Positions 18,605 to 37,242 of a stretch of 37,242 nt of DNA are shown in pieces (position 1 is the stretch's first letter; every line of letters begins with the position of its first letter). The notes beneath the pieces are model-generated. The model searched no databases and had not been told where the DNA came from. It was given only the letters and a program-made list of their open reading frames with translations. This stretch comes from Helicobacteraceae bacterium (GTDB lineage Bacteria; Campylobacterota; Campylobacteria; Campylobacterales; Sulfurimonadaceae), in assembly GCA_027038835.1 (NCBI GenBank), contig JALWGC010000010.1:1-37242 (forward strand), given 5' to 3'. Made by a program: the position numbers and the translations under genes.

Positions 18605-18635
18605 TTATAGGTAAGAATAGACAAAAGGATGTGTG

Positions 18636-20327
18636 ATGGCAGGGACTATCAATTCTCTTGGTATCGGTTCTGGGGTTTTGACCTCGGACGTTATAGACAA
18701 ACTCAAAAAGAACGAAAAAGACGTCATAGTCAAACCGATAGAAAACAAGATAGAGCTACAAAAACAAAAATCGCAATCGCTCGATTTACTCAAAAGTTTG
18801 CTCACCTCTTTTCGTGCGAACGCCAAAGCGCTCGATGACGATGCGTTGTACCAAAGCAGGACCGTCGATGGCAGCAACGACGGTGTTTCGGTAAGCGCAC
18901 AAGACGGAGTTGCGGTACAATCGTTTAGAATAAGCGATACCCGGCTCGCACTCAAAAACGTTTTTCAATCGGGGCATTTCAACTCCAGAAACGCAACCGT
19001 CGCGCAGGGTGATGGAACGATGAGCATCACCATCGATTCCCAAACGTTCGACATCGACTACACGGCGACAACGACCCTCGATGAGCTCAAAACCAAAATC
19101 AACGATGTAGCGGGTGAAAAAGTCGAAGCGAAAATTCTGCAAGTCGGCGACAACGACTATACGATGGTGCTCACTTCCAAAGAAACGGGCGAATCGCAAA
19201 ACATCACCGTCAGCGATTCCGCGGTCGGCTCGCTCGATGCGGGGCTTTATAGAACCAGAGATTCGATCGAGGGGGGTGCGTTCTCCGCAGCAAGCGACAC
19301 CGTAGCGAGCGGAAGCGGTTCGATGACATTGACCGTAAACGGAACCGACTACACCATCAACTACGACACATCCACCACCCTCCAATCCCTTGTCGATGAT
19401 ATCAACAACACCGTAGGGAGCGATGTCGCCTCTATACACCAAAGCGCAAGCGGTGAGTACAGACTCGTAGTCGAATCGACCTCCCAGTGGGAAGACGACA
19501 CCCTCAAAATCGTCGATAACGACGGCGCGCTCGATAGCAAAATCACATCCTACACCCAAAACGATTTCAACGACGAAATACAAAAAGCAAGCGATGCGAA
19601 ATTCAAATACAACGGTATCGAGATAACAAGAAGCTCCAACACCATCGACGACCTTATCGTCGGTGTTACGATAGAGCTCAAACAAGAAAACGCCAGCAGC
19701 AACATCTCCATCAAACAAGATGTTTCCGCCGTAAGTGAGGAGATGCAGTCGTTTGTCGATAACTACAATTCCCTTATGAGTCAAATCGACAAGATGACCC
19801 TTGCCGATACCGAAGAGAACAAAGTCGGACTCTTCAACGGTGACAACTCCATTCGCGGTATAGGAAGAGAAATAACCAAAATCGTCACTTCGTTTTCCAA
19901 CGACGGTTTTTCCCTTTCCCAATTCGGTATAAACATTTCCCAAGACGGTGTGATGAGCTTCAACTCCGCACAGTTTGAAAAAAAGTTCAACGAAGACCCA
20001 AAAGCGGCGGAGCTTTTCCTAAGCGGCGGTTCGACGGTCAACGAAAGCGGCAACGTAGTTACCCATGACGGTGTTTTTACCAAACTCGCAGATACCATGG
20101 ACAACCTCACCGGTGCAAACGGTACTATCAACACGATTATCACCGGTAACGAAAAAGAAGGGAAAAATCTCGAAGAGTCGCACAAAAGAGCGCTGGCGCT
20201 GCTCAATAGCAGATACGACACGATGACGGCACGCTTCATAGAGTACGACGCTATCATCAGTAAACTCAACAACCAGTTCAGCGTCTTGCAACAGCAAATC
20301 GAAATGGCGATAAACGGGAAAGACTAA
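18636..20327 (+). CDS. fliD: Flagellar filament cap protein FliD
   Basis: 563 residues from the ATG at 18636; an in-frame GTG sits three bases earlier, but the AAGGA site at 18625-18629 is spaced better for the ATG. The start MAGTINSLGIGSGVLTSDVI is the FliD N-terminal signature. The middle holds two flagellin-hook-IN-type repeats (around 125-195 and 225-300, each with a TTTLDEL or STTLQSL core), and the last about 100 residues are an amphipathic coiled coil that binds the filament tip. FliD caps the growing filament and helps fold secreted flagellin. Unusually, no fliS or flaG flanks it; a string of sugar-modification genes starts seven bases after its stop instead. Confidence 0.95.
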   Translation: MAGTINSLGIGSGVLTSDVIDKLKKNEKDVIVKPIENKIELQKQKSQSLDLLKSLLTSFRANAKALDDDALYQSRTVDGSNDGVSVSAQDGVAVQSFRISDTRLALKNVFQSGHFNSRNATVAQGDGTMSITIDSQTFDIDYTATTTLDELKTKINDVAGEKVEAKILQVGDNDYTMVLTSKETGESQNITVSDSAVGSLDAGLYRTRDSIEGGAFSAASDTVASGSGSMTLTVNGTDYTINYDTSTTLQSLVDDINNTVGSDVASIHQSASGEYRLVVESTSQWEDDTLKIVDNDGALDSKITSYTQNDFNDEIQKASDAKFKYNGIEITRSSNTIDDLIVGVTIELKQENASSNISIKQDVSAVSEEMQSFVDNYNSLMSQIDKMTLADTEENKVGLFNGDNSIRGIGREITKIVTSFSNDGFSLSQFGINISQDGVMSFNSAQFEKKFNEDPKAAELFLSGGSTVNESGNVVTHDGVFTKLADTMDNLTGANGTINTIITGNEKEGKNLEESHKRALALLNSRYDTMTARFIEYDAIISKLNNQFSVLQQQIEMAINGKD

Positions 20328-20333
20328 AAACAC

Positions 20334-20747
20334 ATGAATATCGAGCTGATCGATTTTCAAGAGCACGTGAACGAACGGGGTGCTCTTGTAGCTTTGGAAG
20401 AGAGAAAAAACATTCCCTTTGCAATCAAACGGGTGTATTACATATACGACGTACCGCAAGAAAAAAGAAGAGGCTACCATGCCCACAGAGATTTGGAACA
20501 GGTGGCGGTTTGCCTCAAGGGGCGATGTTCTTTTCTTTTGGATGACGGCAAGACCAAAACGACATACACCCTTGAGAATCCCGCAACCGGTTTGTATATC
20601 AAAGGGCTTGTCTGGAGAGAGATATTCGACTTTAGCGATGATTGCGTTTTACTCGTTCTTGCCAATCACTACTACGATACGAAAGACTACATTTTCAGCT
20701 ACCAAGAGTTCCTAAAGGCCGTCGCCGATGATACATCCGCTTGCTGA
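20334..20747 (+). CDS. dTDP-4-oxo-6-deoxyglucose 3,4-ketoisomerase (FdtA/QdtA family)
   Basis: 137 residues, a single cupin (WxcM-like) domain of the usual length. The diagnostic motif is RGYHAH with His49 and His51, the catalytic positions of FdtA-type enzymes, followed by [10 protein letters not shown]. The enzyme shifts the keto group of dTDP-4-oxo-6-deoxy-glucose from C4 to C3, the first step toward dTDP-Fuc3NAc (FdtA) or dTDP-Qui3NAc (QdtA). The overall pattern looks closer to FdtA, but I cannot decide the C4 stereochemistry. It begins seven bases after fliD and overlaps the acetyltransferase by 20 bases. The dTDP-sugar suppliers RmlA and RmlB are not in the window. Confidence 0.87.
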
Positions 20748-21246
20748 CGTTCAGACCGAATCGGTAGGAAAAAATACCGACATATGGCAGTTTTGCGTCG
20801 TTTTACCAAAAGCTCGAATCGGTGAAAACTGCAACATCAACGCCCATGTGTTCATCGAAAACGACGTAATTGTCGGAAACAACGTAACCGTCAAGTCGGG
20901 AGTGCAGCTTTGGGACGGGCTTCGAATCGAAGACAACGTGTTTATCGGTCCAAACGTAACTTTCACGAACGATTTTCTACCCCGCAGCAAGCACTACCCG
21001 AAAAGTTTTCTAAAAACAACTCTCGAACGAGGCGCCTCCATCGGAGCCAATGCCACACTCATAGGAGGAATCGTAATCGGCGAATACGCCATGGTAGGTG
21101 CGGGAAGCGTCGTAACCAAAGATATACCCGCTCAAGAATTGTGGCACGGCAATCCCGCCGTTTTTCACGGTTATGTCTGTCGCTGCGGGAAAAAATGCGA
21201 CGAATCGCTCGTTTGCGAAGATTGCCAAAAAGAAGCTGCTTCATGA
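20728..21246 (+). CDS. Left-handed beta-helix N-acetyltransferase for a 3-amino-3,6-dideoxy sugar
   Basis: 172 residues. Hexapeptide repeats run from about 5 to 150 ([54 protein letters not shown]) and form a left-handed beta-helix that binds acetyl-CoA at trimer interfaces. The family includes FdtC, QdtC and WlbB, which acetylate the C3 amine of dTDP-3-amino-3,6-dideoxyhexose. The C-terminus has six Cys in 19 residues, a small zinc-ribbon-like tail. It overlaps both neighbours, so it is translated as part of a tight operon. An arginine-rich frame reading through its 3' half into the next gene is a shadow. Confidence 0.87.
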
Positions 21247-22346
21247 TCCCTTTTCTCGACCTCAAATCGATAAACGCTCCCTATATCGATGCGTTCGTAT
21301 CGGCAACACAGGAGGTTATGCGAAGCGGATGGTATATCGAGGGGGAGAGCTGCAAAGCATTCGAAAAAAATTTCGCTTCGTATTGCGGCGCTTCTTTTTG
21401 TGCAGGTGTCGGCAACGGTCTTGACGCTCTTACGTTAATCTTCAAAGCTTACGTGGCACTTGGCAAACTCCAAAAAGGGGACGAAGTGCTCGTTCCATCG
21501 AACAGTTTCATAGCATCCGCACTTGCCGTACTCAACGCCGGTTTGACTCCGGTATTCGTCGAACCGGACGAACGAACATACCTTCTCAATTCACAATCGG
21601 TAAAAAACGCTCTTTCAAAAAAAACCAAAGCGATTATGGCGGTACACCTCTATGGACAAACCTGCGAAATGGATACGCTAAAAAAAATCGCTTCTACATC
21701 CGGACTCCTTCTTGTAGAGGATGCCGCACAAGCACACGGAGCGACTTACAAAGGCGAAAAAGCGGGTGCACTCGGCGATGCCGCCGCGTTTAGTTTCTAC
21801 CCCGGGAAAAACCTCGGCGCTCTTGGGGACGGCGGCGCGGTAACGACAAACGATGCCGAACTTTACGAGATGGTTCAAGCGTTGAAAAACTACGGTTCGA
21901 ACGAAAAATACATCCACCCCTATCAAGGTGTCAATTCCCGACTCGACACCCTCCAAGCCGCTTTTTTGAACATCAAACTGCGACAGCTCGACAAAGACAA
22001 CGAAACAAGAAGGCAAATAGCCTCTTTCTATCTTGAAAACATCGACAATCAAAACATCTCCCTACCGACACTACGAACGAACTCCGTCTGGCATCTTTTC
22101 GTCGTTCGAACGAAAAACAGAGACGCACTCCAACACCACCTTTTGCAAAACGGCATAGAAAGCATGATCCACTATCCCATACCGATCCACCTGCAAAAAG
22201 CGTTCGAAGACACCAAAACACACCTGCCCATAAGCGAACAAATCGCCAAAGAGATACTCAGCGTTCCGCTGTATCCCACCCTCTCAAAAGAGCACCAACA
22301 CTTCATAGTAGAAACGCTTAACAGGTTCGAAAGGAACGAAAGATGA
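21243..22346 (+). CDS. PLP-dependent DegT/DnrJ/EryC1 aminotransferase (FdtB/QdtB-like)
   Basis: 367 residues from the ATG at 21243, which overlaps the acetyltransferase stop. An upstream extension of the frame is rejected because the family begins exactly at [11 protein letters not shown]. The PLP-binding Lys189 is in [15 protein letters not shown], and [10 protein letters not shown] at 158-167 contacts the cofactor. Sugar aminotransferases of this group use glutamate to aminate a ketosugar nucleotide. With the ketoisomerase and acetyltransferase it completes a three-step route to dTDP-3-acetamido-3,6-dideoxyhexose. The downstream gene starts inside its last codon (ATGA overlap). Confidence 0.9.
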
Positions 22347-25300
22347 AATACATCATCCTTGCAGCGGGAAAAGGGCTGGAGTCTTTGCAAGAGCACAACA
22401 AACTGCCCCAGACGCTGCATCGATTCAAGGACAAAAATCTTCTCGATTACCATTTGCAAATCGCATCGAATTTCACCGATGAAATTATCGTCGTAGGGGG
22501 ATTCGAAATACTCAAACTCATACAAAGCTACCCAAAACTCCAATACTACTACAACGAAAAATGGGAAGAAACAAGCACCCTTTTTTCACTCTACAAGGCG
22601 ATAGACGAACTCGACACCGACACCATCATAACCTACTCCGACACACTCTATTTCGAAGATTCGATTACACAGATGCTCAAAAACGACTCGAGCATCTCCA
22701 TAGCGTACGATTCCGCTTGGGCGACACGCTACGACGGTAGGGAAATCGATGACGAAAACATCGAAAAGGTTTACGAAAAAGAAAACGGCTTCATCGTAAC
22801 GAAACAAAGACTCAAACACCTCCTAAGGGGTGAATTCGCCGGCATCGTCTATGTACCGAAATCGCAAATCAAGCTGTTTCGAAAAGAGATAGAAACGGCG
22901 ATAACGCGTAATATCGCATCGGCTCTTATAGATATTTTTCAAAATTTCCCCAAAGAGGAGCTCTCTCTTTACGATTTCAAATCGCAATGGGCCGAAGCCG
23001 ATTCGCTCCAAGACCTCGAGCGGTTTCATTTCGGCACCAAAGCCCAAACGCTTCACAATCTAAAAAACGCCCTCACCCTTTCGAAGATATTGCCCCAATA
23101 CAAGTTTTCGGTACAAGAGTTCGACGACGCACCCAAAAACGTTCTCAAAGAGATTTCCCAAAAGTTTCAAGAACGCTACGTCGTCGTTAGAAGCTCCGCA
23201 AAAGGGGAGGACTCCCTCGAAGCCTCTATGGCGGGAAACTTCGAGAGCGTTTTGAACGTGGACAAAGAAAACGGCGACGAACTGCTCGCTGCCATAAAAC
23301 GGGTGATACGAAGCTACACCCTAAAAGGGGCGAACGACCCTTCCAATGAAGTGCTCGTTCAACCCTATTTGCAAAATGTTCGCATCCATGGTGTGTGTTT
23401 GAGTATGGACGTAAAAAACAACGCCCCGTACTACATCGTCAACTATGCGCACACATCCGACACCGAAGCGATTACCGACGGCTCCGCATCACGCCATGAA
23501 ACTTTCGTATGTTACAAAAACTACCAAAGCGCACCCCCTACGAAATACCTCCAAACACTTCTAAACGCCGTCAAAGAGATAGAATCGACGACCCGATTCG
23601 ACGCGCTCGATATAGAGTTCGCTTTTGTCCAAGAACAGCTCTACATCTTGCAAGTTCGCCCCATCGCCATCAAAAAAAACACCCGAACAATAAGCCGTTA
23701 CGACATACAAAAAGAGCTTGACAAACTCAAAAGCTCCTTTGCCAAGCGGCAAAAAGAGCGCTATCTCCTTGGCAGCAAAACCGGCTTTGGAGTGATGCCC
23801 GATTGGAATCCGGCGGAGATTATCGGCATCGACCCAAAACCGCTTGCAAGTGCGCTTTATCGATACATCGTAACCGATACCGTCTGGGCGCAAAGTCGCT
23901 ACCGATTAGGGTACAAAGAGGTCAAAAACGCACCCGGAATGGTGCTTTTTTCCCAAAAAGCCTATATCGATATCCAAATGAGTTTCAACACTTTCTTACC
24001 CCAATCACTTCCGGATGAACTCGGTGCGAAACTTGTCGATTACGCCATGAGCAAACTGCAAAAAAACAGAGAATTAGACGACAAAGTCGAGTTCGAGGTG
24101 ATGCCCACGGCATACGATTTTAATTTCCAAAAAAAGATGCAAGAGCTCCAAGACAACGGTTTTTCCCTTTCCCAAACCGCTACCATAAAAGAGCATTACA
24201 AACAACTCACAAGCGACATTATCACCCAAAAAAATTTCTCTTTTCAAGCAGAGCTTGCAAAACTGAACAAGCTGCAAAAAGAGCGTGAAGAGATTCTGCG
24301 CTCGAACAAAAACGAACTTGAGCAGATTTATCTTCTTTTAGAATCGCTCAAACACAACGGCACACTGCCGTTTGCAAAACTTGCGCGGTGTAGTTTCATC
24401 GGCTCTATCTTACTGCGTTCGCTCGTGCAAAAAGGCTCTTTGGATACGCAGCTGCACAACGATTTCTTCCGCTCCATCAACACAATCACTTCGGAATTCA
24501 TGCACGATTTTCACAAACTGCGCTCCAACGAACTTACAAAAGAGGATTTTTTAGCCAAATACGGCCATTTACGACCGAATACTTACGACATAACTTCGCT
24601 CAACTACAAAGAGGGGTTTTCCATCTACTTCCAAAACACCCAAGAGCGAAACAAAGATGCCACACCCCCAAACACCGACACTTTAAAAAAGCTCGAAACG
24701 GTGCTGAAAAAAGAGCTCAAAAACGAGAACTTCCCTTTTGGGGCATTGGAGCTTCTTGCGTTTATAACCGAGTCTATCAAATTGCGCGAATACGCGAAAT
24801 ATCTCTTTACCAAAAACATCGACACCATCTTCACCCTTTTATGCAACTTTTTCAAAGAGGATTTTTCCAAAGAGGAGCTGCAATTTGTAAACCTACATGA
24901 AATCCTCGATAGCGGTTTCGAACTGGGAGAATACAACCTTGTCGAGCAGGTACGTGCAACTATCAAAACCAACAAACTCAAACATACCCTCTCGCGCACC
25001 ATCAAGCTTCCCGACCTCATCTTCTCGCAAGAGGATTTGGAGTTTTTCTACTACACGCACAAACGCCCCAACTTCATAGGCACAACCGCCATCAGCGCAA
25101 AAGTGCTCCACCTAAGAACCGAAGATGGCGCCGAACTTGATGGGAAAATCGTCTGCATAGAAAACGCCGACCCCGGATTCGACTGGATATTCAACCACGA
25201 TATCAAAGCGCTTGTAACCAAATACGGCGGAGTCGCTTCCCATATGGCGATTCGCTGCGCCGAGCTCGATATCAGCTCCGCCATAGGGTGCGGGGAAGCG

Positions 25301-25375
25301 TTGTTCGAGAAGATATGCAACGCCGACACCGTCTTGATAGACCCCACAAATCAAAAAATAGAGACAATCACATGA
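22343..25375 (+). CDS. Fusion: degenerate nucleotidyltransferase domain plus Cj1418-like glutamine kinase (PEP-synthase-like)
   Basis: 1010 residues in three parts. Residues 1 to about 200 look like a sugar-nucleotide transferase fold (YIILAAGKG start), but the usual GxGxRLxPxT...PK signature is degraded ([14 protein letters not shown]), so it may be inactive. Residues about 210-445 are a PPDK/PEP-synthase-type ATP-binding domain ([11 protein letters not shown] near 279, LYILQVRP near 430). The last about 90 residues are the swivelling phosphohistidine domain, with GGVASH and candidate His967. The kinase part, about 780 residues, has the size and layout of C. jejuni Cj1418, which phosphorylates the amide nitrogen of L-glutamine. 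There is no PEP-binding C-terminal barrel, which argues against PEP synthase. The following two genes match Cj1417 and Cj1416 in the same order. Confidence 0.82.
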
Positions 25376-25980
25376 AAACCTGTTTGATGAGCATGCGCAT
25401 AACCCAAAACGACACCTACAAAGAGATGCGCAACTCCATCGCGTTCGCGTATGTCGAGTTTTTCGAAAAACTGGGATACACCATCGTTTTAGTACCCAAC
25501 GGCACGACGAAACTTTTGGAGTATTTTCGACACTTCGACCCTTCTTTGGTGGTCCTAAGCGGCGGGGACGACATAGACGACAAAGACAAACAGAGCCGTT
25601 TTGCAACCGAAGCGGCTATGGTTGAAGAAGCGCTAAAACGAAACGTTCCCATCATCGGTATTTGCCGAGGGTTGCAAATGATCGCCAAACAACTCTACGA
25701 TGCACCGCTAAAGCGCATAGACGCTCATGTGGCAAAACCGCATACACTCCAAAGCCCTTATCGGTTTCTCGATGCTCATCGAACCAACTCGTTTCACAAT
25801 TTCGGTATTTTTACCGATTCGTTGCCAAAAAGTGTACAGATTGTCGCGACGAAGGACGATATAGTGGAAGCTTTTTACGACAAAGAAAAGGGGGTTTTAG
25901 CCTTGCAATGGCACCCCGAACGTCAAAACGAGCCCTTCGACGTCGAACTTGTCGAAATGTTCCTACAAGGTAGTTTATGA
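25372..25980 (+). CDS. Class I glutamine amidotransferase-like hydrolase, Cj1417-like
   Basis: 202 residues from the ATG at 25372, which overlaps the kinase stop by ATGA. The catalytic triad is visible: Cys98 in GICRGLQ, then His181 and Glu183 in QWHPE; SGGDDI at 63-68 is the typical oxyanion-region motif. The fold is the gamma-glutamyl hydrolase/glutaminase type without a synthetase domain. In C. jejuni the equivalent, Cj1417, hydrolyses gamma-glutamyl-CDP-amidate to glutamate and cytidine diphosphoramidate. Position between a Cj1418-like kinase and a Cj1416-like transferase strongly favours that role over puuD-type gamma-glutamyl hydrolysis. Function is inferred from context, not tested. 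Confidence 0.85.
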   Translation: MKTCLMSMRITQNDTYKEMRNSIAFAYVEFFEKLGYTIVLVPNGTTKLLEYFRHFDPSLVVLSGGDDIDDKDKQSRFATEAAMVEEALKRNVPIIGICRGLQMIAKQLYDAPLKRIDAHVAKPHTLQSPYRFLDAHRTNSFHNFGIFTDSLPKSVQIVATKDDIVEAFYDKEKGVLALQWHPERQNEPFDVELVEMFLQGSL

Positions 25981-27044
25981 AAGTGATAATTCTTTGCGCG
26001 GGTCTTGGTAGCCGCCTCCGCCCCCATACCGACAACCGTCCCAAATGTATGGTCGAAGTTGCCGACAAACCGATCGTACGGCACCAACTCGATCTTTTCG
26101 CCGAATTTGGAATAAAAGAGATAACCCTTGTTACCGGCTACAAAGCCGACGTCATCCCCTACGACGATGTCGCCAAAATCCACAACCAAGACTACGACTC
26201 GACCAATATGCTCCACTCGTTATTCTTGGCAAAAGAGCTCTTTTTGCAAAACGAGGATATCCTCGTATCGTATGGGGATATCATCTACACCAAAGAGGTT
26301 TTACAAAAAATCATCGATGCCGATGGAGCGTGCGACGTCGTCGTCGATAAAGGGTTCAAACCCTATTGGTACGCAAGATCGCAAGAACCGCTTGAGGATT
26401 TGGAAACGTTGCGACTCGATGACAAAGGGTTCATCTGCGATATCGGCAACACTCCGCGAAACATCGAAGAGATACAAGGGCAGTACATCGGTCTTTTCAA
26501 GTTCTCCAAAACCGTTACGAAAGAGGTGTACGACTTCTACGCCTCTTTAAACGACACCAAAAATATGTACGTAACCGCTTTTTTGCAAGCGCTGTCGCAA
26601 AACGGCTTTGAGCTCGCTCCCGTTTTCATCCACAACGGCTGGATAGAAATAGATACGCCCGATGATATGCTCCATACGAACTTTTTACGATACGGCGAGG
26701 AGTACTTCATAACCGAAGAGTTCTTGCACCGCATAAACACTCGTAACGGGTTGGAAAAGGGCGATTTTCCACGTATGGAAAAGCTTTGTAAAAAGATAGA
26801 CGTCGTCAAGAAAATCTATCAGGTTTACGAGCGAGATTTGACACAAGCCGCCACTAGTGTAGAAATCTCCGCCAAGAACTACAACCTTCTGCTTCGAACG
26901 CTTGGCACTTTGGCGATGCGATACAACGATTTGAAGTACCTCAATTCCGCACTGAAACTCCAAGATACGCTCCAAGAGCGGGGTATCCTCTCAAAGCACG
27001 CCAAAGAGGAAGTTACACGTTGCCAAAAGGAGCTTTTGGTATGA
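25977..27044 (+). CDS. Nucleotidyltransferase, Cj1416-like CTP:phosphoglutamine cytidylyltransferase candidate
   Basis: 355 residues. The first about 240 form a nucleotidyltransferase domain with an intact signature, CAGLGSRLRPHT then RPKCMVEV (Lys23), and an acidic metal site (YGDIIY near 100). The final about 110 residues are a helical extension not typical of RmlA-type enzymes. In C. jejuni, Cj1416 couples CTP to L-glutamine phosphate; the order kinase, amidotransferase, nucleotidyltransferase is the same here. A choline- or glycerol-phosphate cytidylyltransferase is the main alternative, since a TagF-like gene follows two genes later. It overlaps the upstream stop (ATGA) and the downstream start. 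Confidence 0.82.
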   Translation: MKVIILCAGLGSRLRPHTDNRPKCMVEVADKPIVRHQLDLFAEFGIKEITLVTGYKADVIPYDDVAKIHNQDYDSTNMLHSLFLAKELFLQNEDILVSYGDIIYTKEVLQKIIDADGACDVVVDKGFKPYWYARSQEPLEDLETLRLDDKGFICDIGNTPRNIEEIQGQYIGLFKFSKTVTKEVYDFYASLNDTKNMYVTAFLQALSQNGFELAPVFIHNGWIEIDTPDDMLHTNFLRYGEEYFITEEFLHRINTRNGLEKGDFPRMEKLCKKIDVVKKIYQVYERDLTQAATSVEISAKNYNLLLRTLGTLAMRYNDLKYLNSALKLQDTLQERGILSKHAKEEVTRCQKELLV

Positions 27045-27811
27045 TCGATTTGACCTTCTTGTACGTTGGTACGATAGAGTCGAAAATCTACCTCGAACTC
27101 CTCGCACAAAACGACCTTCTGCCAAAAAAGATCGTTTTTTTGCGCTTTGGCAACTACGATTCGTTCATAGCCAAACGGGAAAACGTAGAACCGAAACTTC
27201 AAAAGGAGTTGATCGATTTTCTCAACTTGCCGCACACAAAGCTTTCTTGTTTCTCTTTGCGAAACTACGAAACCGAAATAGACGAGATAACCATCGATTC
27301 ACTCGCCGATGCACACTTGGCGCGCTATCTCGCGAACGAACCCATCAAAACGTTTCTCTATACCGGCGGAGGGAAAGTTCCAACTTCCCTGCTTACTATA
27401 AAAAACAGCAAGTTCATACATATCCATCCGGGTATCCTGCCCGATATCAAAGGGGCGGATTGTTTCTTGTGGTCTTTGTCGATACGGAAAAAACTTGGCT
27501 ATAGCTGCTTCTACATGAACGAAGGGATCGACACCGGCGATATCCTCTACACCAAAGAGTACGATATAGCCGATTTTTCCCTTTTTGTCGAAAAATACGA
27601 CATACACCGGCTCTACAAAGCGATACTGCACTACTACGACCCCGTTTTACGCATACGTACGTTTATGGAGATGCTACGCAAAAACTCCTTGGACGCTCTT
27701 TCCTCTCTCCCTTCGCGAAGACAAAACCCAAACGAAGGGAGAACCTACTTTTTCATGCATCCCGTTTTGCGAAACTACGTACTACAAAAATATCTACAAG
27801 GCAACCGATGA
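27041..27811 (+). CDS. Formyltransferase-family protein with altered active site
   Basis: 256 residues from the ATG at 27041 (AAGGAG site upstream, ATGA overlap with the previous stop); an upstream TTG start is less likely. The central block HIHPGILPDIKGADCF and then GIDTGDIL is the formyltransferase hallmark: the His and the Asp of the N-H-D triad are present. The usual Asn of the NxH motif is His here (HIH), so a standard 10-formyl-tetrahydrofolate mechanism is in doubt. Related proteins occur in surface-glycan clusters of other bacteria. Possible roles are N-formylation of an amino sugar or another acyl or phospho-linked modification. It lies between the CDP-phosphoramidate trio and the TagF-like gene. 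Confidence 0.7.
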   Translation: MIDLTFLYVGTIESKIYLELLAQNDLLPKKIVFLRFGNYDSFIAKRENVEPKLQKELIDFLNLPHTKLSCFSLRNYETEIDEITIDSLADAHLARYLANEPIKTFLYTGGGKVPTSLLTIKNSKFIHIHPGILPDIKGADCFLWSLSIRKKLGYSCFYMNEGIDTGDILYTKEYDIADFSLFVEKYDIHRLYKAILHYYDPVLRIRTFMEMLRKNSLDALSSLPSRRQNPNEGRTYFFMHPVLRNYVLQKYLQGNR

Positions 27812-28911
27812 AACGAAACAACGACTATTTCCGCTCCCTTTACAACGTCAAAAAATTCAACGCTCGCTTCGCACGAAAAAAGCCGGTAGTCTTCTACAGC
27901 CGCTACATCGTGCACAACTCTTTCATAGCGCCTATACTCAGCGAGTTGACCAAAAGGGGTGAAGTGGTAGTTTTTTGCGGCGACAAACACGACCCGCAAC
28001 TGCAAAAAAAACAACGCAACCTCCACACTTTTTATCTCGATTTTCGCTACGAATCCCTTTTTCGTTTGCTAAAAACCCCCGTGCTCGCTACTGCCGCCAC
28101 CTCTTTTGCGGCGAAGAACAAACCAAAAGATTCCAAACTCGTTCATATCTTCCACTCCCTTGTGAGCATCAACTATGTCTATACCGAATCGGCTTACGAC
28201 GGATACGACGTTTTTTTCGCAACCGGTGAGCATCACTACAACGAGCTAAGAAGCTACGCGAAGCAGAAAAACTGGAAGAACAAGACTTTTTTCAAAATCG
28301 GCTACCCGAAGATAATCGACGTTACCGCCAACAAACGGCTGCCAAAACCTAAAACGGCGACCGTTTTGCTCGCGCCTTCATGGGGCAAGTACAATCTTCT
28401 AAGGGAGCACGGTTTGGAAATAGTGCGACAACTCCTCGATGCGGGGTATGCCGTTACGGTTCGACCCCATACCCATTCTTATCAAAACGACAAAGATATC
28501 TTGGATGAAATTCGAGCGATAGCACGAACCGACCACCGCTGTATCGTCGAGGAAAAAGAGAGCATCTCCACCGCCTCTTTGGCAAAAGCCGACTTGATGA
28601 TATCGGACTGGTCGGGAGCCGCCTACGAATTCGCCTTTGGATTTTTGAAACCGGTCTTGTTCATAGACGTACCGAAAAAAATCAACAACCAAAACCAAAA
28701 GTTACTGACCCTCTTTACCCCTATGGAGGTGTATTTGCGAGATATCGTCGGCAAAGTGAGCTCCATCGAGCACATGACAGAGGATGTAGAGTCGATGCTC
28801 GCTAACGAAAAAATATATAGAAAAAAAATCGTCCAAGCCAGAAAAAACCATCTTTACAATCTCTCAAACGCCCATAAAAAAGCCGCGCTTTGCTTGGAAA
28901 ACATGCTATAA
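27808..28911 (+). CDS. TagF/TagB-like CDP-alcohol phosphotransferase (glycerophosphotransferase family)
   Basis: 367 residues, a GT-B-like fold. Characteristic motifs are APSWGKYN (about 189-196), RPHTHS (about 218-223) and ISDWSGAAYEFAF (about 265-277), matching the conserved HPH/RPH and SDxSS-x-x-EF blocks of CDP-glycerol:polyglycerophosphate transferases. These enzymes move a phospho-alcohol from a CDP-activated donor to an acceptor at the inner membrane face. No teichoic-acid genes exist here, so the donor may be another CDP compound, possibly the product of the preceding genes (inference). It overlaps the upstream gene by four bases and ends the fliD-glycan run; the promoter of the giant glycosyltransferase spans its stop codon. 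Confidence 0.8.
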   Translation: MKRNNDYFRSLYNVKKFNARFARKKPVVFYSRYIVHNSFIAPILSELTKRGEVVVFCGDKHDPQLQKKQRNLHTFYLDFRYESLFRLLKTPVLATAATSFAAKNKPKDSKLVHIFHSLVSINYVYTESAYDGYDVFFATGEHHYNELRSYAKQKNWKNKTFFKIGYPKIIDVTANKRLPKPKTATVLLAPSWGKYNLLREHGLEIVRQLLDAGYAVTVRPHTHSYQNDKDILDEIRAIARTDHRCIVEEKESISTASLAKADLMISDWSGAAYEFAFGFLKPVLFIDVPKKINNQNQKLLTLFTPMEVYLRDIVGKVSSIEHMTEDVESMLANEKIYRKKIVQARKNHLYNLSNAHKKAALCLENML

Positions 28912-28912
28912 T
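28904..28912 (+). promoter_or_regulatory. Extended -10 promoter for the giant glycosyltransferase
   Basis: TGC-TATAAT is an extended -10 (TGnTATAAT) that straddles the stop codon of the TagF-like gene, 26 bases before the next ATG. No matching -35 is seen at standard spacing. An AAGGTG ribosome site follows. Confidence 0.5.
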
Positions 28913-28938: not shown

Positions 28939-31900
28939 ATGCCAAACAAAGAACAGCCTCTTGTAACCATCTCTATATTTAGCTATAACCAAGAAAAATA
29001 TCTTCCCGTACTCATAGAATCGATTCTTAATCAAACATACAAAAATATCGAACTTTTCGTAAGCGATGACGCTTCAAGCGACGACACCGCGCAAGTCGTA
29101 CGTCGATACGAAGAAGACAAACGGTTCCATTTTTCACAAAATCCAAAAAACATAGGTTCGAAAAAAAACTACGCAAAAGCGATGGCCGCAGGGAGCGGCA
29201 AATACAAAATGGTTTTCGGGGGTGATGACTACCTCGACCCCCGCTATGTCGAAACCATGGTTAGCTACCTTGAAGAAAATCCCCACTGCAGCGCCGCATA
29301 CTGCCCCGCCACATGGATAGATAAAAACAACGATACCATCAAAGTCGCACACCACATAGGGCATCCAAAACAGCTCCAAATAGGCGGACGCAACGAAGTT
29401 GCCGATTTGCTGGTGTTTGACAACTACATCAACCCTTGTACGTTCATCGTACGCAGCGACGTTCTCGAGCGACTCGAGCCCATCGTCGATACCAACGCAC
29501 CGGCCGCACTCGACTGGGAGCTTTATATCCGTATCGCTTTGGAAAACGACAACTTCATTTTCGTACCCGAACCGCTCTCGTTTTACAGAGTCCATGACCA
29601 GCAGATATCCCAAAAAGAGTTCTACAACTCCATTCGCCCTTTGCAAGCGCACATCTACATCCTCGACAAAGTGCTCAAACACCCAAAAGCCAAAGAGTTG
29701 CTCACCGACAGAAAAGAGGAAATCATCCAGCATCTTCTTCGAAGATACGACAGCTACAAACAGCTCCCCGAAGCCAAAAAACTGGAAAAAGAGGTTATCC
29801 GCATCCAAAACCTGCTCGATAGTTTCGTCAACGAGATGCCAAAGCTACCGGATAAAAAGCCACTCGTATCCGTCGTGCTTACCACCTACAACAGACGGGA
29901 CCTGCTTCCAGACGCGATACGGTCGGTACTGGAGCAAACCTACAAGAACTTCGAACTGCTCGTCGTCAACGACGCCGGCGAAGATGTCGCCGACATCATC
30001 GAGTCTTTTGGCGACAAGCGGATCAAACTACTTACACACAAGTTCAACAGAGGTCTGCCTTTTGCAAGAAATACGGCGCTACGCATCATTCATGGGGAGA
30101 TAGTAACCTACCTTGACGACGATGACTTGTACCTGCCGAAGCACTTGGAAAAACTCGTCGATGCTTTTGTCAAAACCAACGCCGCGGTTGTCTTCACCGG
30201 TTCGGTCTATGTAGATGAAACGATCGAAGAGAACCAAAGAAAAGCGCTTGCCAAAAACAACGTTTTCGCCTCTATCCAGTACTCCAAAGAACGGCTGCAT
30301 ATCCAAAACTTCATCCCCGTCAACGCTTGGGCTCACAGAGCGCAAACGATTCAAGAGGTGGGGTATTTCGACGAATCGCTCACCTCTTTGGAAGACTGGG
30401 ACTACCTTTTGAAACTCAGCCGCAAGTACGACTTCAAGCAACTTTTCGATGTTACCGTAGAGGTAAGACGGCGAGTCGAAAACGCCGACAACATGCTTAG
30501 CCGCGAAAAGGAAAACTTCTACGACCTTTTCAAACTCCTCTACGACAGATACGACAACCTTGGAAACCAACTCGTCGAAGAGGGGCGCAACAAAGCGCTG
30601 CAAGAACTCGCGCCGGCTATCAGCGAAGATTTCAAAGGGAAATTCATCCTTTATCTCAACCACCCTTACGATACGCGGCGAACACTCTATTTCGAAACGC
30701 CCGTCATAGACGGACTGAACTATCTTGACGAGTACAAGATACTCTCCATCTGGAAAAACGACGGGGAGAACTTCGAGTTCGATTACAACCTTGTCAAACG
30801 AAGCGACTATATCCTTGTGCACAATCGCGGAGCACTCTTTAGCGAGGCGATACTCAAACTCAAGGCGTATGGCAAAAAAATCCTCTATCTTCTCGACTTC
30901 AACCCGTTCAAAATCGTCCCTACCCATAGCGCGTACCACTACTACAAAGCGCTCCGTCCTCGGGTCGAAACGGTACTCAATATCGCCGATAGGGTGATCA
31001 CCTCCTCCAAGCTGCTCAAAGAGCAGATAGCCCCTCATGCGCATACGCTACAAATCGGTGCGAACTTAGAGCTATGGATACAAAAGGTTCAAAAGGAAAA
31101 CCACAACAAAATCCGCATAGCGTGTATAGCCGATTACAACCACATAGACCCCCTTCGCCACCTGCGGGTCGTTTTTAACTACCTCAAAGAAAAATACGCC
31201 AAAAAAGTCGAAATCGTACTGTACGGTTTGGGTATAGACGGGTTCGAGTTGGCTGCGTTTGAGGATCTTACGATCGTACGCATAAACGCCCCTTCTTACG
31301 CCAAATGGGTCGAATATCTACGCACGCAAGCGATCGACATCGCGTTGCTCTCAAGCAACAACGACGCGTTTTCCAAGTCGTTAAACGGTTACGAGATGTT
31401 CGAATACGCACTAAGCAACATCACCTTGATAGCTGCAAACACGAAACCTTACAACGACTTCATAGAGCATGGCAAAACGGGCTATCTTTGCGGAAGCGAC
31501 CTAAGCGACTGGAAAAAAGCGCTCGACACCTTGATAAAAGATGAAAAAAAGCGTATAGAGCTCTCCAACAACGCTTTTGAAAAAGTGCTGCAACACTATA
31601 CCGTACAGCATAACGCGGCATCTTGGAGAGAAGTTATCGACTCCTTGAAGGTTGAAAAAACCGCCTCCATTCAACACCAAGAGTTCCACTCTTTGGAGCT
31701 TCGATGGAAAAAGTACGACATCGCGTCGATGGAGCGCTACCCCGCTTGGCTCGAGCAAAAACGTTTCAGAACGCAAGATATCTCCATCTGGGCGAAAGAA
31801 GCCGAAATGTGGGAGAGTCTTCCCCACTTCACCTTTTTCGTTTTCCATACCGGCTCACTCGAACATCTACACAAAACTCTCGAGTCTATCATGCGGCAAA

Positions 31901-34395
31901 TCTACCCGAAATGGCATATCGTCATATTGAGCGATGAAACACTGCAGATGGCGCAAGAGGAGAAAATCGACGTCGTAACGACCGATCTCAACCTTTTCGA
32001 AGCGTTCAACACGCTCGTTCTCGGAAACGAACTCGAGTGGATAGTCCCCCTTCGAAGCGGAGATGTTTTCGAAGCGGATTTCCTTGCTATCATGGTGCAA
32101 CTGCTCAACGAAAAAGAGGATCTCGCTTTTCTCTACTGCGACAACGGACATATCGATTCGCTCGATATTTTCAACGCACCTTTTTTCAAACCCGACCACA
32201 ACATCGATATGCTTCGCTCGTTCAACTATATCGACGACACCTTCGCCATCCACAAAGCGCTCTTCGCTCATGTAGGCGGAGTCGATCCCCTTTTGGCTCA
32301 AAACGAACTCTACGATTTGAGTCTCAAAGCTTTCGAAGTGCTCGACCAAGCGCAAATCTACCATATAGACGAAATACTGTGGCATAGATTCACCCAAAAA
32401 CAAGATATACAAACACAAGAGATAGCTAAAGCCTCCGCACAACTGGCGATTTCCAAACACCTCAAACGGCAAAATATCGCCGCGGAGGTGATAGAAGGAA
32501 ACGCCAAAGGCACGTTTAGAACCCTCTATTATCACGACGCTTCGCCTCTTGTCTCCATCATCATACCGACAAAAGACCAAGTAGCGCTTTTACGAACGTG
32601 CATAAGCTCCCTTATAGAGAAAACGGGGTATGAAAACTATGAAATTTTGATAGTGAACAACCAAAGTAAAGAGGAAGAGACACTTTCTTATTTCGACCAA
32701 TTGCGCAAAGAGTACGATTTTGTACGAATCATCCCTTATTTCGAAGAGTTCAACTACTCCAAAGCCAACAACATCGCCGCCAAAGAAGCAAGTGGAGAGT
32801 ACTTCCTCTTTTTGAACAACGACACCGAAATCACCCAAGAAAACTGGCTCGATGTAATGATGAGCTACGCCCAAAGAGAGGATGTCGGGGTTGTGGGTGC
32901 GCGCTTGCTCTTTAGCGACAACACCATTCAACACGCCGGCGTTTCGCTTGGTCTCAACCTTCCGGCGCAACATGTATTCGCCCATGAAACGCTCTATATC
33001 GGCGGCTACATGAACCGCTTGCAAATCGATCAAAATCTCAGCGCCGTAACGGGAGCGTGTATGCTCGTTCCAAAAACGGTTTTTGAGGATATCGGCGGAT
33101 TCAACCAAACGGACTTCCAAGTGCTCTATAGCGATATCGACCTTTGTCTCAAAGCCATAGAAGCCCAAAAAAAGGTAGTTTGGACACCGTTTGCGACACT
33201 CTACCATCACGAATCCAAAACAATCAACAACATCAAGTCCAAAGAGGTCGAAAAAAGAAAGAAAGTGTACAACAAAGACCTCGAAACTTTCGTTGGGATG
33301 TGGTACGAGTATCTTCTTCACGACCCGGCATACAACAAAAACCTGCTTGTGAACAAAGAGATGCTTCTAATCAATACCGAAGATATCCCTCACTGGAACC
33401 GCTTCACCAAACGCACCGAAAAGTTCTGGGCGCTTCCAAGAGGGCTTGACGGCGGTGGAGAATACAGGGTCATCTCGCCGATGCAAGGACTGGACAAAGC
33501 CTCTTACGTCCAAGCGCACATCGCGTGGAGTTACTACCAATACGACTATATTTTGGAAAGACACGCACCGACACATATCCTTATGCAAACACCTTTGCAT
33601 GATGCGCATATCGGTTTCATCGAAAAAATCGCAAAAAGAACGAAAGCGAAGCTCCTTTTCGAAATAGACGACTTGCTAGACAACATTCCAAAAGACAATC
33701 CGGCATACGACAAACGCTACCCGGACATCACCAAAAGGTTGCAACGAACCATCTCGATGTGCGACAAACTCATCGTCTCGACCAAACCGCTCGAAGACGC
33801 TTACGGCAAATACGCCAAAGAGACCTCCATAGTCGCGAACTATCTACGCAAAGATATCTGGCTACCGCTTAAAGACGTGCCAAAACGTTTCCAAGGGAAA
33901 AAAATCCGTGTCGGATGGGCGGGAGCGATGTTTCATACGGGAGATTTGAGCATAATCGCCGATGTGGTCAAGGAGCTCAAAGACAAGGTCGAATGGGTTT
34001 TCATGGGGCTTGCGCCAAAAGGGTGCGAAGCGTTCATAGAGTACCACGAGAGCGTACCTCTTAGAGACTACCCCCAAAAACTCGCTACGCTCGACCTCGA
34101 CCTTGCCGTCGTTCCGTTGCAGCAACACCCTTTCAACGACGCCAAAAGCAACCTTCGTCTGCTTGAATTCGGTATATTTGGCTGGAGCGTGATAGCTACC
34201 GATGCCTACCCGTACAGAAATGCACCCGTAACGTTGGTCGAAAATACGAAAAAAGCGTGGATAGAAGCGATAGAAGCGAAAATCGCCGATAAAGAAAAAC
34301 TGATTGAAGATGGCGAAAGACTAAGAGAGTGGGTTTTGAAAAATTACATGCTCGAAGACCACTTGGATACAATCTACCAAGGGTATGTTTCATAA
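28939..34395 (+). CDS. Giant multi-domain glycosyltransferase (about six GT modules)
   Basis: 1818 residues with no signal peptide or membrane helix. Modules in order: GT2/GT-A at about 7-230 (ISIFSYNQEKY, GGDDYLDP); a second GT2 at about 307-520 (VVLTTYNRRD, YLDDDDLYLP); a GT-B half or whole at about 567-895; a degenerate GT-A at about 960-1150, where the metal-binding acidic motif is weak (PLRSGD); a rhamnosyltransferase-like GT2 at about 1202-1444 (IIIPTKDQ, FLNNDTEI); and a GT4-like GT-B C-terminus at about 1496-1818 (VGWAGAMFHTGD, LRLLEFGIFGWSVIATDAYPY). Such chains can assemble a whole oligosaccharide. It is convergent with two flagellin genes and downstream of the sugar-nucleotide operon, so flagellin glycosylation is the likely role (inference). 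Its stop codon touches a 13-base-pair palindrome. Confidence 0.88.
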   Translation: MPNKEQPLVTISIFSYNQEKYLPVLIESILNQTYKNIELFVSDDASSDDTAQVVRRYEEDKRFHFSQNPKNIGSKKNYAKAMAAGSGKYKMVFGGDDYLDPRYVETMVSYLEENPHCSAAYCPATWIDKNNDTIKVAHHIGHPKQLQIGGRNEVADLLVFDNYINPCTFIVRSDVLERLEPIVDTNAPAALDWELYIRIALENDNFIFVPEPLSFYRVHDQQISQKEFYNSIRPLQAHIYILDKVLKHPKAKELLTDRKEEIIQHLLRRYDSYKQLPEAKKLEKEVIRIQNLLDSFVNEMPKLPDKKPLVSVVLTTYNRRDLLPDAIRSVLEQTYKNFELLVVNDAGEDVADIIESFGDKRIKLLTHKFNRGLPFARNTALRIIHGEIVTYLDDDDLYLPKHLEKLVDAFVKTNAAVVFTGSVYVDETIEENQRKALAKNNVFASIQYSKERLHIQNFIPVNAWAHRAQTIQEVGYFDESLTSLEDWDYLLKLSRKYDFKQLFDVTVEVRRRVENADNMLSREKENFYDLFKLLYDRYDNLGNQLVEEGRNKALQELAPAISEDFKGKFILYLNHPYDTRRTLYFETPVIDGLNYLDEYKILSIWKNDGENFEFDYNLVKRSDYILVHNRGALFSEAILKLKAYGKKILYLLDFNPFKIVPTHSAYHYYKALRPRVETVLNIADRVITSSKLLKEQIAPHAHTLQIGANLELWIQKVQKENHNKIRIACIADYNHIDPLRHLRVVFNYLKEKYAKKVEIVLYGLGIDGFELAAFEDLTIVRINAPSYAKWVEYLRTQAIDIALLSSNNDAFSKSLNGYEMFEYALSNITLIAANTKPYNDFIEHGKTGYLCGSDLSDWKKALDTLIKDEKKRIELSNNAFEKVLQHYTVQHNAASWREVIDSLKVEKTASIQHQEFHSLELRWKKYDIASMERYPAWLEQKRFRTQDISIWAKEAEMWESLPHFTFFVFHTGSLEHLHKTLESIMRQIYPKWHIVILSDETLQMAQEEKIDVVTTDLNLFEAFNTLVLGNELEWIVPLRSGDVFEADFLAIMVQLLNEKEDLAFLYCDNGHIDSLDIFNAPFFKPDHNIDMLRSFNYIDDTFAIHKALFAHVGGVDPLLAQNELYDLSLKAFEVLDQAQIYHIDEILWHRFTQKQDIQTQEIAKASAQLAISKHLKRQNIAAEVIEGNAKGTFRTLYYHDASPLVSIIIPTKDQVALLRTCISSLIEKTGYENYEILIVNNQSKEEETLSYFDQLRKEYDFVRIIPYFEEFNYSKANNIAAKEASGEYFLFLNNDTEITQENWLDVMMSYAQREDVGVVGARLLFSDNTIQHAGVSLGLNLPAQHVFAHETLYIGGYMNRLQIDQNLSAVTGACMLVPKTVFEDIGGFNQTDFQVLYSDIDLCLKAIEAQKKVVWTPFATLYHHESKTINNIKSKEVEKRKKVYNKDLETFVGMWYEYLLHDPAYNKNLLVNKEMLLINTEDIPHWNRFTKRTEKFWALPRGLDGGGEYRVISPMQGLDKASYVQAHIAWSYYQYDYILERHAPTHILMQTPLHDAHIGFIEKIAKRTKAKLLFEIDDLLDNIPKDNPAYDKRYPDITKRLQRTISMCDKLIVSTKPLEDAYGKYAKETSIVANYLRKDIWLPLKDVPKRFQGKKIRVGWAGAMFHTGDLSIIADVVKELKDKVEWVFMGLAPKGCEAFIEYHESVPLRDYPQKLATLDLDLAVVPLQQHPFNDAKSNLRLLEFGIFGWSVIATDAYPYRNAPVTLVENTKKAWIEAIEAKIADKEKLIEDGERLREWVLKNYMLEDHLDTIYQGYVS

Positions 34396-34457: not shown

Positions 34458-35918
34458 CTATTGCAACAACTTCAAGACGTTTTGCTGAACCGCATTTGCC
34501 TGACTCATAGCGTACGAGCCCGATTGCGCCAAGATGTTGAGTTTGGAGAAGTTCGCACTCTCGGCTGCGAAATCGACATCTCTTATCTGACTTTCTGCCG
34601 CTTTGACGTTGACTTGCGTTACGGTGATGTTGTTGATGGTAGCGACCATTTGGTTTTGTACAGACCCAAGGTCCGAGCGCACGACATCGAGCTGTTTTGT
34701 AGCAGCTTCCGCGATGGCCATCATCGCTTGCGCACCCGCGTATGTCGTAACACCCGATCCCAAATCGGTAGTCGCACCGATGACGTTGTCGTTGTTGATA
34801 GCGCCTATGGCTCGCGCTTCGCTATTGGAAAAACCATCGAGCGTCGTTCTTAGATTCACCGTCGCTTCGTTCTTTCCGCCCGCATCCAAAACGGTATCGC
34901 TTACACGGATGTCGCCGCCACCGAGTTTAATCATAGTCAAGTTACCGGAGTATTGACCGTCATCTATACCCGCAATAGAAGAGAGTCCGCTTGTATCGAT
35001 CATTCTACCGTCACGTGAAGTAAGCTCCAACCTACCGCGAGGATCGACCGATGCGGTAACGCCTGTTGTCTCTTTTTCGGCGTTGATAGCTTGAACGAGA
35101 ACACCTGTGTTGTCGTTTGCTTTGACATCGTTAGCGACGATAGTTACGCCGTTGATGGTAAATGTAGCGGCACTGGCCGAAGCTATCGACTTACTACCGG
35201 TTTCGACAACGTTGTAAGAAGCTTTTACGCCGAGCGCATCGGAGTTTTTATTAATAACTTCCGCCAACGCTCCAAAACCTTCACCTGCACCACTACCCAT
35301 AGTGACGCTTTCTAACGTGAGCACTTGATTGGCATCTCCATGAGCGCCGCTGAAAGTAAGACTGATCGTACCTGTTGCGACGCCGCTGTAAGTCTCGAAT
35401 CGGGTATGCCCGATTTTATCCGAACTTGTAGCGCCAATGGAAACACCGACAGTTTCGTTGGAGTAAGCACCGATTTGGAAATTCGCGTTTGTAAAACCGC
35501 CTGAGAGCAATGTTTTACCGTTGTATGACGTAGTTTTAGCGATATTGTCAAGCTCTTGCATCAATCTTGAAATATCCGCTTGAAGCGCTTTTCTCGTATC
35601 GGTTGTTTGACCGTCTTGTGCAGCTTGTGTCGCTTTTGTTTTGATTGTATCGAGGATTTTGATTTGCTCATCCATCGCTTTGTCCGCGATTTGGATCATA
35701 GATACACCGTCGTTGGCGTTGGCTATAGCTTGACCGAGTGCCGAAGCTTGGCTTCTTAGGCTGTCTGCAATCGCCATCCCTGAAGCGTCGTCTGCCGCTT
35801 TGTTGATACGAAGACCTGAAGAAAGTTTTTCAAGTGAGCTTGAAAGACCTCTGTTTGTTACTTGTGCGTTTGCGTGTGCGTTGAGTGCACTTACGTTTGT
35901 GTTTATTCTAAACCCCAT
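34458..35918 (-). CDS. Flagellin, complete copy
   Basis: 486 residues. The conserved D0/D1 N-terminus ([17 protein letters not shown], then [25 protein letters not shown]) and C-terminus ([19 protein letters not shown] to QQNVLKLLQ) flank a variable middle with a flagellin-IN-type motif around 260-310. Residues 88-101 ([13 protein letters not shown]) are of the Campylobacter/Helicobacter type that escapes TLR5. No signal peptide is present, as expected for type III export. A strong ribosome site (AAGGGA) and a sigma-54-type promoter precede it. It lies directly downstream of a near-copy at 36074-37242. The Ser/Thr-rich middle (for example [15 protein letters not shown]) is a plausible glycosylation target for the neighbouring enzymes. 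Confidence 0.96.
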
Positions 35919-36073: not shown

Positions 36074-37242
36074 CTACTGGAGTAGTCTAAGAACGTTTTG
36101 TTGAACGGCATTTGCCTGACTCATAGCGTATGAACCGGATTGCGCCAAGATGTTGAGTTTAGAGAAGTTCGCACTTTCAGCTGCGAAATCGACATCTCTG
36201 ATTTGGCTTTCTGCCGCTTTGACGTTAACTTGCGTAACAGAAACGTTGTTGATAGTCGAAACCATCTGATTTTGAACAGAACCGAGGTCTGAGCGGATAG
36301 CATCGAGCTGTTTTGTAGCAGCTTCCGCGATAGCCATCATCGCTTGCGCACCTGCATATGTCGTAACACCAGAACCAAGGTCGTCTGTCGCTCCGATAAC
36401 GTTCGTGTTGGCGAATGCACCCATAGCTTTAGCTTCTGTGTTGCTAAATCCATCGAGAGTCGTTCTAAGGTTTACAGTCGCTTCATCTGTAGTACCTGCA
36501 TCGAAAACGGCATCTGATACACGGATGTCGCCGCCACCGAGTTTAATCATAGTCAAGTTACCGGAGTATTGACCGTCATCTATACCTGCAACAGAAGAGA
36601 GTCCGCTTGTATCGATCATTCTACCGTCACGCGAAGTAAGTTCGAGATGACCTCTTGCATCGACCGATGCGGTAACGCCTGTTGTCTCTTTTTCGGCGTT
36701 GATAGCTTGTACGAGAACACCTGTGTTGTCGTTTGCTTTGACATCGTTAGCGACGATAGTTACGCCGTTGATGCTAAATGTGATGGCACCTGTAGCAGCT
36801 ACTGAAGCAGTACCGGTTTCGACAACGTTGTAAGAAGCTTTTACGCCGAGCGCATCGGAGTTTTTATTAATAACTTCCGCCAACGCTCCAAAACCTTCAC
36901 CTGCACCACTACCCATAGTAACACTTTCAAGTGTAACTACAGCACCTGCATCACCGTTTACACCGCTAAATGTAAGACTAATCGAACCTGTAGCTACATC
37001 ATGTGTAGTTTCAAAGCGGGTATGCCCGATTTTATCCGAACTTGTAGCGCCAATGGAAACACCGACTGTTTCGTTGGAGTATCCACCGATTTGGAAATTC
37101 GCGTTTGTAAAACCGCCTGAGAGCAACGTTTTACCGTTGTATGACGTAGTTTTAGCGATATTGTCAAGCTCTTGCATCAATCTTGAAATATCCGCTTGAA
37201 GCGCTTTTCTCGTATCGGTTGTTTGACCGTCTTGTGCAGCTT
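36074..37242 (-). CDS. Flagellin, second copy, 5' end beyond the window
   Basis: The frame stays open to the right edge; about 389 C-terminal residues are visible and the N-terminal about 95 residues lie outside. It is nearly the same protein as the copy at 34458-35918: by hand count about 40 differences in 368 shared residues, concentrated in the surface-exposed middle (for example [13 protein letters not shown] against TASVAATGAITFS). The ends are almost invariant and it finishes QQNVLRLLQ. DNA identity is patchy, with long near-identical blocks between stretches full of silent changes. Its promoter is not visible. A hairpin follows the stop. Confidence 0.95.
   Translation of the reverse strand, partial: AAQDGQTTDTRKALQADISRLMQELDNIAKTTSYNGKTLLSGGFTNANFQIGGYSNETVGVSIGATSSDKIGHTRFETTHDVATGSISLTFSGVNGDAGAVVTLESVTMGSGAGEGFGALAEVINKNSDALGVKASYNVVETGTASVAATGAITFSINGVTIVANDVKANDNTGVLVQAINAEKETTGVTASVDARGHLELTSRDGRMIDTSGLSSVAGIDDGQYSGNLTMIKLGGGDIRVSDAVFDAGTTDEATVNLRTTLDGFSNTEAKAMGAFANTNVIGATDDLGSGVTTYAGAQAMMAIAEAATKQLDAIRSDLGSVQNQMVSTINNVSVTQVNVKAAESQIRDVDFAAESANFSKLNILAQSGSYAMSQANAVQQNVLRLLQ
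36074..37242 (-). repeat. Tandem gene duplication (flagellin), repeat of 34458-35637
   Basis: The right-hand flagellin gene is a direct repeat of the left-hand one on the same strand, separated by 155 bases. Identical or nearly identical blocks include about 35048-35158 with about 36667-36777, and about 34904-34970 with about 36523-36589. Between them silent differences are dense, the pattern expected of gene conversion. Confidence 0.85.

Follow-up and report, generated by a model that had tools for sequence, protein, structure and literature searches.

A giant FgtA-related glycosyltransferase encoded beside flagellin in a Sulfurimonadaceae genome and its proposed role in flagellin glycosylation

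Introduction

Flagellin glycosylation in the Campylobacterota is usually thought of in terms of pseudaminic acid and Maf, as in Campylobacter and Helicobacter. This study focused on a stretch of DNA (the window; 37,242 nt of contig JALWGC010000010.1, assembly GCA_027038835.1) from a Sulfurimonadaceae bacterium in which flagellin genes lie beside a gene for a giant, uncharacterised protein composed of several glycosyltransferase modules. What does such a protein do at this site, and how many sugars might it add? A preliminary description of the window had proposed that it builds a complete oligosaccharide on flagellin in the cytoplasm, and not on a lipid carrier.

Results

The gene and its surroundings

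The gene occupies positions 28939–34395 (+ strand) as an uninterrupted open reading frame of 1818 residues, so that the protein is indeed a single polypeptide, and it faces flagellin as originally described, its stop codon being separated by 62 bp from a convergent gene (34458–35918, − strand) for a flagellin of 486 aa, the presumed acceptor. Beyond this lies a second flagellin copy (36074–37242, − strand) that is cut by the contig end. Another contig of the genome, C4, continues the broken flagellin; the first 53 residues encoded there (G000:C4:1-160) are 98% identical to the first flagellin of the window, and duplication of the gene is the probable cause of the break in the assembly. From fliD (18633–20327, +, recognized by family match) through to the glycosyltransferase, the genes of the + strand abut or overlap with gaps never above about 30 bases, and GC content is level throughout the island, which therefore carries no sign of recent foreign origin. 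The gene directly upstream of fliD (15315–18587) is possibly one for defence: its product, 1090 residues long, combines DUF4062 with a STAND/NACHT-type ATPase domain.

An AAGG stands about 8 nt ahead of the ATG of the glycosyltransferase gene. The gene had also been credited with its own extended −10 promoter, and the sequence in question, TGCTATAAT, is present at 28904–28912 (+), but the genes here are closely spaced and it overlaps the last bases of the one before, and its frequency is at chance level (2 exact matches observed against 0.73 expected per shuffled window, with 18% of shuffles reaching 2). A promoter scan likewise found fewer sigma-70-like sites in the region than by chance, and a separate promoter is unproven.

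Module architecture

Pfam, PDB sequence matches, profile searches of aligned regions, profile–profile comparison and two AlphaFold2 models together uphold the earlier count of about six modules: three GT-A modules bearing motifs, one degenerate GT-A module and two GT-B regions. Above cut-off, Pfam recognizes three Glycos_transf_2 stretches and one Glyco_trans_1_2 stretch. From the N-terminus, A1 (residues ~8–230; 28960–29628, +) is a GT-A module of family 2 with GDD at 95–97 and DWE at 192, and A2 (residues ~309–530; 29863–30528, +) is another, with DDDD from 393 and EDWD at 485; both were assigned by Pfam, PDB sequence matches and motifs, and the nearest PDB sequence to A2 is a PglI-type glucosyltransferase. 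These are followed by B1 (residues ~568–910; 30640–31668, +), a GT-B module placed by Pfam, profiles, hhalign and a model, and by A3 (residues ~950–1190; 31786–32508, +), which has a GT-A fold according to profile, AlphaFold2 and alignment. The degeneracy ascribed to A3 is real: at residue 1040 it has SGD, as against DNDD in a relative from outside the flagellin-linked group, the DxD motif is lost in every core homologue and is absent in all nine proteins of the motif alignment, and a profile search returned a chondroitin synthase match. A4 (residues ~1203–1470; 32545–33348, +; Pfam, AlphaFold2, alignment) is again a GT-A module of family 2, with NND at 1293–1295 and SDID at 1398. The C-terminal B2 (residues ~1490–1818; 33406–34392, +; alignment, AlphaFold2) is a GT4-like GT-B module with a KSNLRLLE motif, and is the proposed flagellin-priming transferase.

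The second of the two GT-B regions (B2) has no Pfam match in the window protein, but four of the seven aligned relatives match Glyco_trans_1_2; together with a GT4-like AlphaFold2 fold and the homology of B1 to B2 (hhalign probability 99.4%, E 1.8e-21), this confirms that there is a second GT-B region. Structure prediction, which had been suggested for settling the module borders, was run on residues 925–1818 and on B1. In the first model (mean pLDDT 71), B2 is nearest to GT4-type GT-B structures (Z 21–24 over about 300 residues), A4 falls among GT-A enzymes (Z about 22), and for A3 the match is chondroitin polymerase. The B1 model is weaker (mean pLDDT 62), giving solid GT-B matches from its C-terminal half alone (Z about 17), and it leans towards a GT-B outcome because B2 paralogues served as alignment rows. 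An alignment of residues 1–915 was discarded, since it had misplaced GT-B rows onto A2. Polypeptide GalNAc-transferases supply many of the PDB rows for A4; at 14–18% identity in a common fold, they were not taken as evidence of protein glycosylation.

By their motifs, A1, A2, A4 and B2 look clearly intact and A3 does not, while B1 is uncertain; its catalytic glutamate is not retained in the two relatives described below, and its activity appears doubtful. No membrane segment was found in the protein, the mean hydropathy of 19-residue windows never rising above 1.21, in agreement with the reported lack of a membrane anchor.

A conserved core beside flagellin

Searches covered samples of 80 relatives, 228 genomes of the family, 397 of the phylum and 44 of the family of one core homologue (overlapping sets), and yielded no full-length relative. 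The long core (about residues 568–1818, ~1250 residues) was found in two other Campylobacterota genomes among those searched, G095 (43% identity, on a contig that starts inside the gene) and G421 (37%), which belongs to another family. It is rare, then, occurring in three genomes of the several hundred searched in the phylum; in both other genomes a flagellin gene lies directly downstream on the opposite strand, as in the window, so that the core in its entirety, both GT-B modules included, adjoins flagellin in three of three Campylobacterales cases. Beyond flagellin, topA- and bioB-like genes (names assigned by reading translations) occur in both G421 and the present genome. The G421 protein, of 1825 residues, has an N-terminal methyltransferase and a single GT-A module in place of A1 and A2, and the N-terminal part is therefore exchangeable. 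No homologue with the A1–A2 pair was found in the genomes searched, and the enlarged form is known from this one genome. Both modules resemble generic GT2 proteins found elsewhere as single genes. An origin of A1–A2 by fusion is suggested by a further genome, G099, where a free-standing GT2 gene is followed by an independent A2-like frame (44% identical) truncated at the end of the contig.

A scan of genome contigs gave matches in Pantoea ananatis, P. stewartii and Pectobacterium polonicum; apart from these, its matches to A1/A2 were all to generic GT2 proteins. At both Pantoea loci, the core protein adjoins fliC and fliD, and such inserts have been described as flagellin glycosylation islands (PMC4875605). 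The giant GT2 proteins of Pantoea (frames of 1230 and 1239 aa) and Pectobacterium share A3-A4-B2 with the window protein but have no A1–A2 extension, their region ahead of A3 aligns only weakly with B1, and the other sugar genes of the islands differ. The Pantoea islands also encode a second giant protein (L033 13075-16530; L035 12405-15878) in which the motifs of A3, A4 and B2 are lost, and which may be a non-catalytic partner. Three loci sharing A3–A4 alone had no flagellin within the stretch read. Viral contigs gave three GT2 matches and one relative of B2, a 346-residue GT-B protein on an IMG/VR contig (L159 2761-3798) with ~31% identity and KSNLRLLE present.

Relationship to FgtA

Among plasmid records, a search turned up a 1694-residue Pseudomonas aeruginosa protein encoded directly upstream of b-type fliC and preceded by genes for a methyltransferase, a HAD phosphatase and an NTP-transferase, which is the order of pa1088–pa1091. 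From this order and the annotation, we take the protein as FgtA (PA1091). In a record whose label is that of an 847-kb P. aeruginosa plasmid (L165; NZ_CP131792.1 392208-418028), flagellar genes extend in a long run from flgG to fliG, with fgtA and b-type fliC among them. Residues 977–1811 of the window protein align with FgtA, along the whole of its C-terminal half, at 30% identity over 841 residues (E 1e-105), with B2 37% identical, which would make FgtA its closest CHARACTERISED relative. The two share a C-terminal core of degenerate GT-A, GT-A and GT-B (A3-A4-B2), and the window protein keeps the FgtA-type GT-B2 motifs GWAG...GDL and KSNLRLLE. Both genes lie beside flagellin, and both loci have a cytidylyltransferase gene and a Glyphos_transf domain. 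They differ in that A4 is intact in the window protein, whereas in FgtA it has SLGAG in place of LNND and B2 is the sole module with its motifs kept; in that B1, A1 and A2 are added in the window protein; and in that the phosphotransferase is the N-terminal domain of FgtA itself but here a separate neighbouring gene (27808–28911). This fusion is not treated as defining for the FgtA family at large, separate genes being found in Clostridioides difficile as well.

FgtA has been attributed to family GT2. In PAO1, a pa1091 mutant has nonglycosylated flagellin and mutants in pa1088–pa1090 retain a single deoxyhexose, the full glycan being one deoxyhexose with phospho-N,N-dimethylthreonine (PMC11833859). 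Because FgtA attaches one sugar and B2 is its one motif-intact module, B2 is most simply read as the primer of flagellin, which differs from the published GT2 attribution.

Neighbouring genes

Downstream of fliD, the + strand run begins with genes for an FdtA-like dTDP-4-keto-6-deoxyglucose ketoisomerase (20334–20747, Pfam), a hexapeptide-repeat, FdtC-like N-acetyltransferase (20728–21246, Pfam) and a DegT-family, FdtB-like aminotransferase (21243–22346, family match), which presumably form a 3-acetamido-3,6-dideoxyhexose pathway. Then comes a 1010-residue fusion (22343–25375) of an N-terminal nucleotidyltransferase to a PEP-synthase-like, candidate glutamine kinase similar to Cj1418, with a conserved GGxxSHMA motif. 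The profile that it matches, NF004508 (840 bits, cut-off 501), is named 'hypothetical protein', and the kinase assignment draws on synteny and on the role of Cj1418. The next gene (25372–25980; family match, gene order) encodes a C26 amidotransferase-type protein, likely a Cj1417-like gamma-glutamyl-CDP-amidate hydrolase; its best NCBIfam match, NF045546 for that hydrolase, scores 101 bits, below the cut-off of 250, and it has the WHxER signature and gene order of kinase-linked homologues, unlike unlinked ones. It is followed by a nucleotidyltransferase (25977–27044; Pfam, gene order), likely a Cj1416-like CTP:phosphoglutamine cytidylyltransferase, a formyltransferase-like protein (27041–27811, Pfam; start at 27020 or 27041) and a 367-aa phosphotransferase of the Glyphos_transf family (27808–28911) that matches both Pfam and residues 298–426 of FgtA (BLASTP, E 3e-9).

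The order kinase, hydrolase, cytidylyltransferase recurs in nine other Campylobacterales loci, in which the kinase match begins near residue 220–230 of the window protein, whereas the window kinase is fused to the extra N-terminal nucleotidyltransferase. In Campylobacter, Cj1415–Cj1418 make the CDP-phosphoramidate donor of the capsule (PMC11800397). The window set would share, in the same order, the first three steps of that O-methyl phosphoramidate pathway (Cj1415–Cj1422), but it lies beside flagellin and not in a capsule locus, and its kinase carries a second nucleotidyltransferase domain. We have not filed it as the O-methyl phosphoramidate pathway because no Cj1415-like CDP-amidate kinase (PF01583) was found in the genome, the one match (19.5 bits, below the 21.1 cut-off) lying away from the island; the phosphorus group would therefore come from CDP-amidate itself. 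One of the nine loci (L145; G345:C1:1579000-1598000) has kinase, hydrolase, cytidylyltransferase, APS-kinase-like and methyltransferase genes beside two flagellins, PseB-like and Maf, and is a second flagellin-linked case of a phosphoramidate-type gene set, in this instance methyl-phosphoramidate-like.

The role counterpart of the Glyphos_transf protein is CD0244 of C. difficile (PMC10714395). The type A flagellar glycan locus of that species (CD0240–CD0244) similarly combines a glycosyltransferase, CTP-dependent activation of a phospho-amino acid and a separate Glyphos-type transferase, but its product is one sugar with phospho-N-methylthreonine, whereas the kinase and C26 hydrolase genes of the window point to a phosphoramidate donor. 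Since the Glyphos_transf protein matches the phosphotransferase domain of FgtA and corresponds to CD0244, a phosphorus group is to be expected on the glycan.

Other glycosylation routes in the genome

There is no match to the Maf/MptE-like domain (PF01973) in the genome and NeuB was not found in it. The genome thus lacks the flagellin pathway usual in campylobacteria, and differs in this from the Maf/pseudaminic acid system of Campylobacter and Helicobacter. Genes of lipopolysaccharide type, including RmlB and a Wzy_C protein, form a separate cluster on another contig, C12.

Discussion

The modules, the FgtA homology, the locus and the gene order can be read from the DNA itself. Because of that homology, the repeated adjacency to flagellin, the absence of Maf and NeuB and the separate lipopolysaccharide cluster, the flagellin glycosylation role first proposed is well supported, and it is likely that the 1818-residue protein glycosylates flagellin in the manner of FgtA, as a variant with an enlarged set of modules. 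A glycosylated flagellin in this organism is a prediction from sequences and models.

The protein might instead build a surface polysaccharide, either lipopolysaccharide or capsule, its position next to flagellin being incidental. GT2 modules such as A1 and A2, and the A3–A4 pair, are common in polysaccharide clusters, and the loci with A3–A4 alone sit away from flagellin, but the full core is next to flagellin in every Campylobacterales case, as is the A3-A4-B2 part in Pantoea and Pseudomonas, and the island has no recognisable flippase or polymerase. A polysaccharide role is improbable, given the lack of Maf and NeuB and a lipopolysaccharide-type cluster elsewhere in the genome. Slightly more improbable still is pre-assembly of the oligosaccharide, whether on a lipid carrier or on a free acceptor, with transfer to flagellin by a separate ligase. 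Multi-module synthases like chondroitin polymerase, which A3 resembles, do elongate free chains; against this, the protein has no membrane segment, the island shows neither an initiator of lipid-linked sugars nor a ligase that could be recognised, and flagellin needs the homologue FgtA itself for its first sugar.

The strongest rival agrees with the preferred explanation on flagellin and differs in glycan length: several modules would be scaffolding, with one or two sugars added as by FgtA, and the N-terminal modules would be recent fusions of low effect. The loss of A3 motifs in all core homologues, the poor conservation of B1, the degeneracy of A4 in FgtA and in the second Pantoea protein, and the generic character of A1 and A2 all favour it, but A1, A2, A4 and B2 retain their motifs in the window protein, and we regard it as unlikely, though clearly less so than the two preceding alternatives.

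Returning to FgtA-type glycosylation with an enlarged module set, the module steps, the sugars, the phosphoramidate and a direct rather than lipid-borne assembly are what we infer from these comparisons. The enzyme would act in the cytoplasm on flagellin that has yet to be exported. B2 would attach the first sugar to a serine or threonine, probably a deoxyhexose from a dTDP-sugar, after which A4, A2 and A1 (and B1, if active) would add one sugar each, A3 being a structural remnant; the neighbouring Fdt enzymes would supply dTDP-3-acetamido-3,6-dideoxyhexose. The phosphotransferase would move a phosphorus group onto the sugar chain from a CDP donor. Three enzymes of the gene run (glutamine kinase, cytidylyltransferase and hydrolase) would make this donor, which is most likely one for phosphoramidate. 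The lack of a membrane segment fits cytoplasmic assembly free of a lipid carrier, as do the FgtA mutants. Applying the FgtA count (one intact site, one sugar) to the intact modules predicts a flagellin glycan of four sugars, perhaps five if B1 works; the complete oligosaccharide proposed at the outset is in keeping with several intact sites but is scaled down from six by the degenerate A3 and the doubtful B1. The module-by-module assignment of steps is about evenly balanced between right and wrong, and the presence of phosphoramidate on the flagellin glycan could equally go either way. The full picture, in which a single polypeptide assembles four or five sugars on flagellin itself and the chain is capped from a CDP donor with phosphoramidate (P–N), is offered tentatively, at somewhat below even chances.

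No report of phosphoramidate on flagellin was found among open-licence papers and, if true, this would to our knowledge be the first case of a glycan on protein that bears phosphoramidate. It is predicted here for flagellin in bacteria where pseudaminic acid and Maf would be expected. The preliminary description had brought in neither FgtA nor the conserved core with its variable N-terminal part, nor the phosphoramidate-type genes just upstream. A giant uncharacterised protein is now tied to a known flagellin glycosyltransferase, FgtA, whose family can be seen as a fixed core with exchangeable N-terminal modules and in which the C-terminal GT-B module, and not the GT2 module, is pointed to as the flagellin primer. 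The rule proposed is that intact sites equal sugars, with FgtA as its first data point; if true, these proteins would be modular assembly lines, with glycan length fixed by how many active sites are intact.
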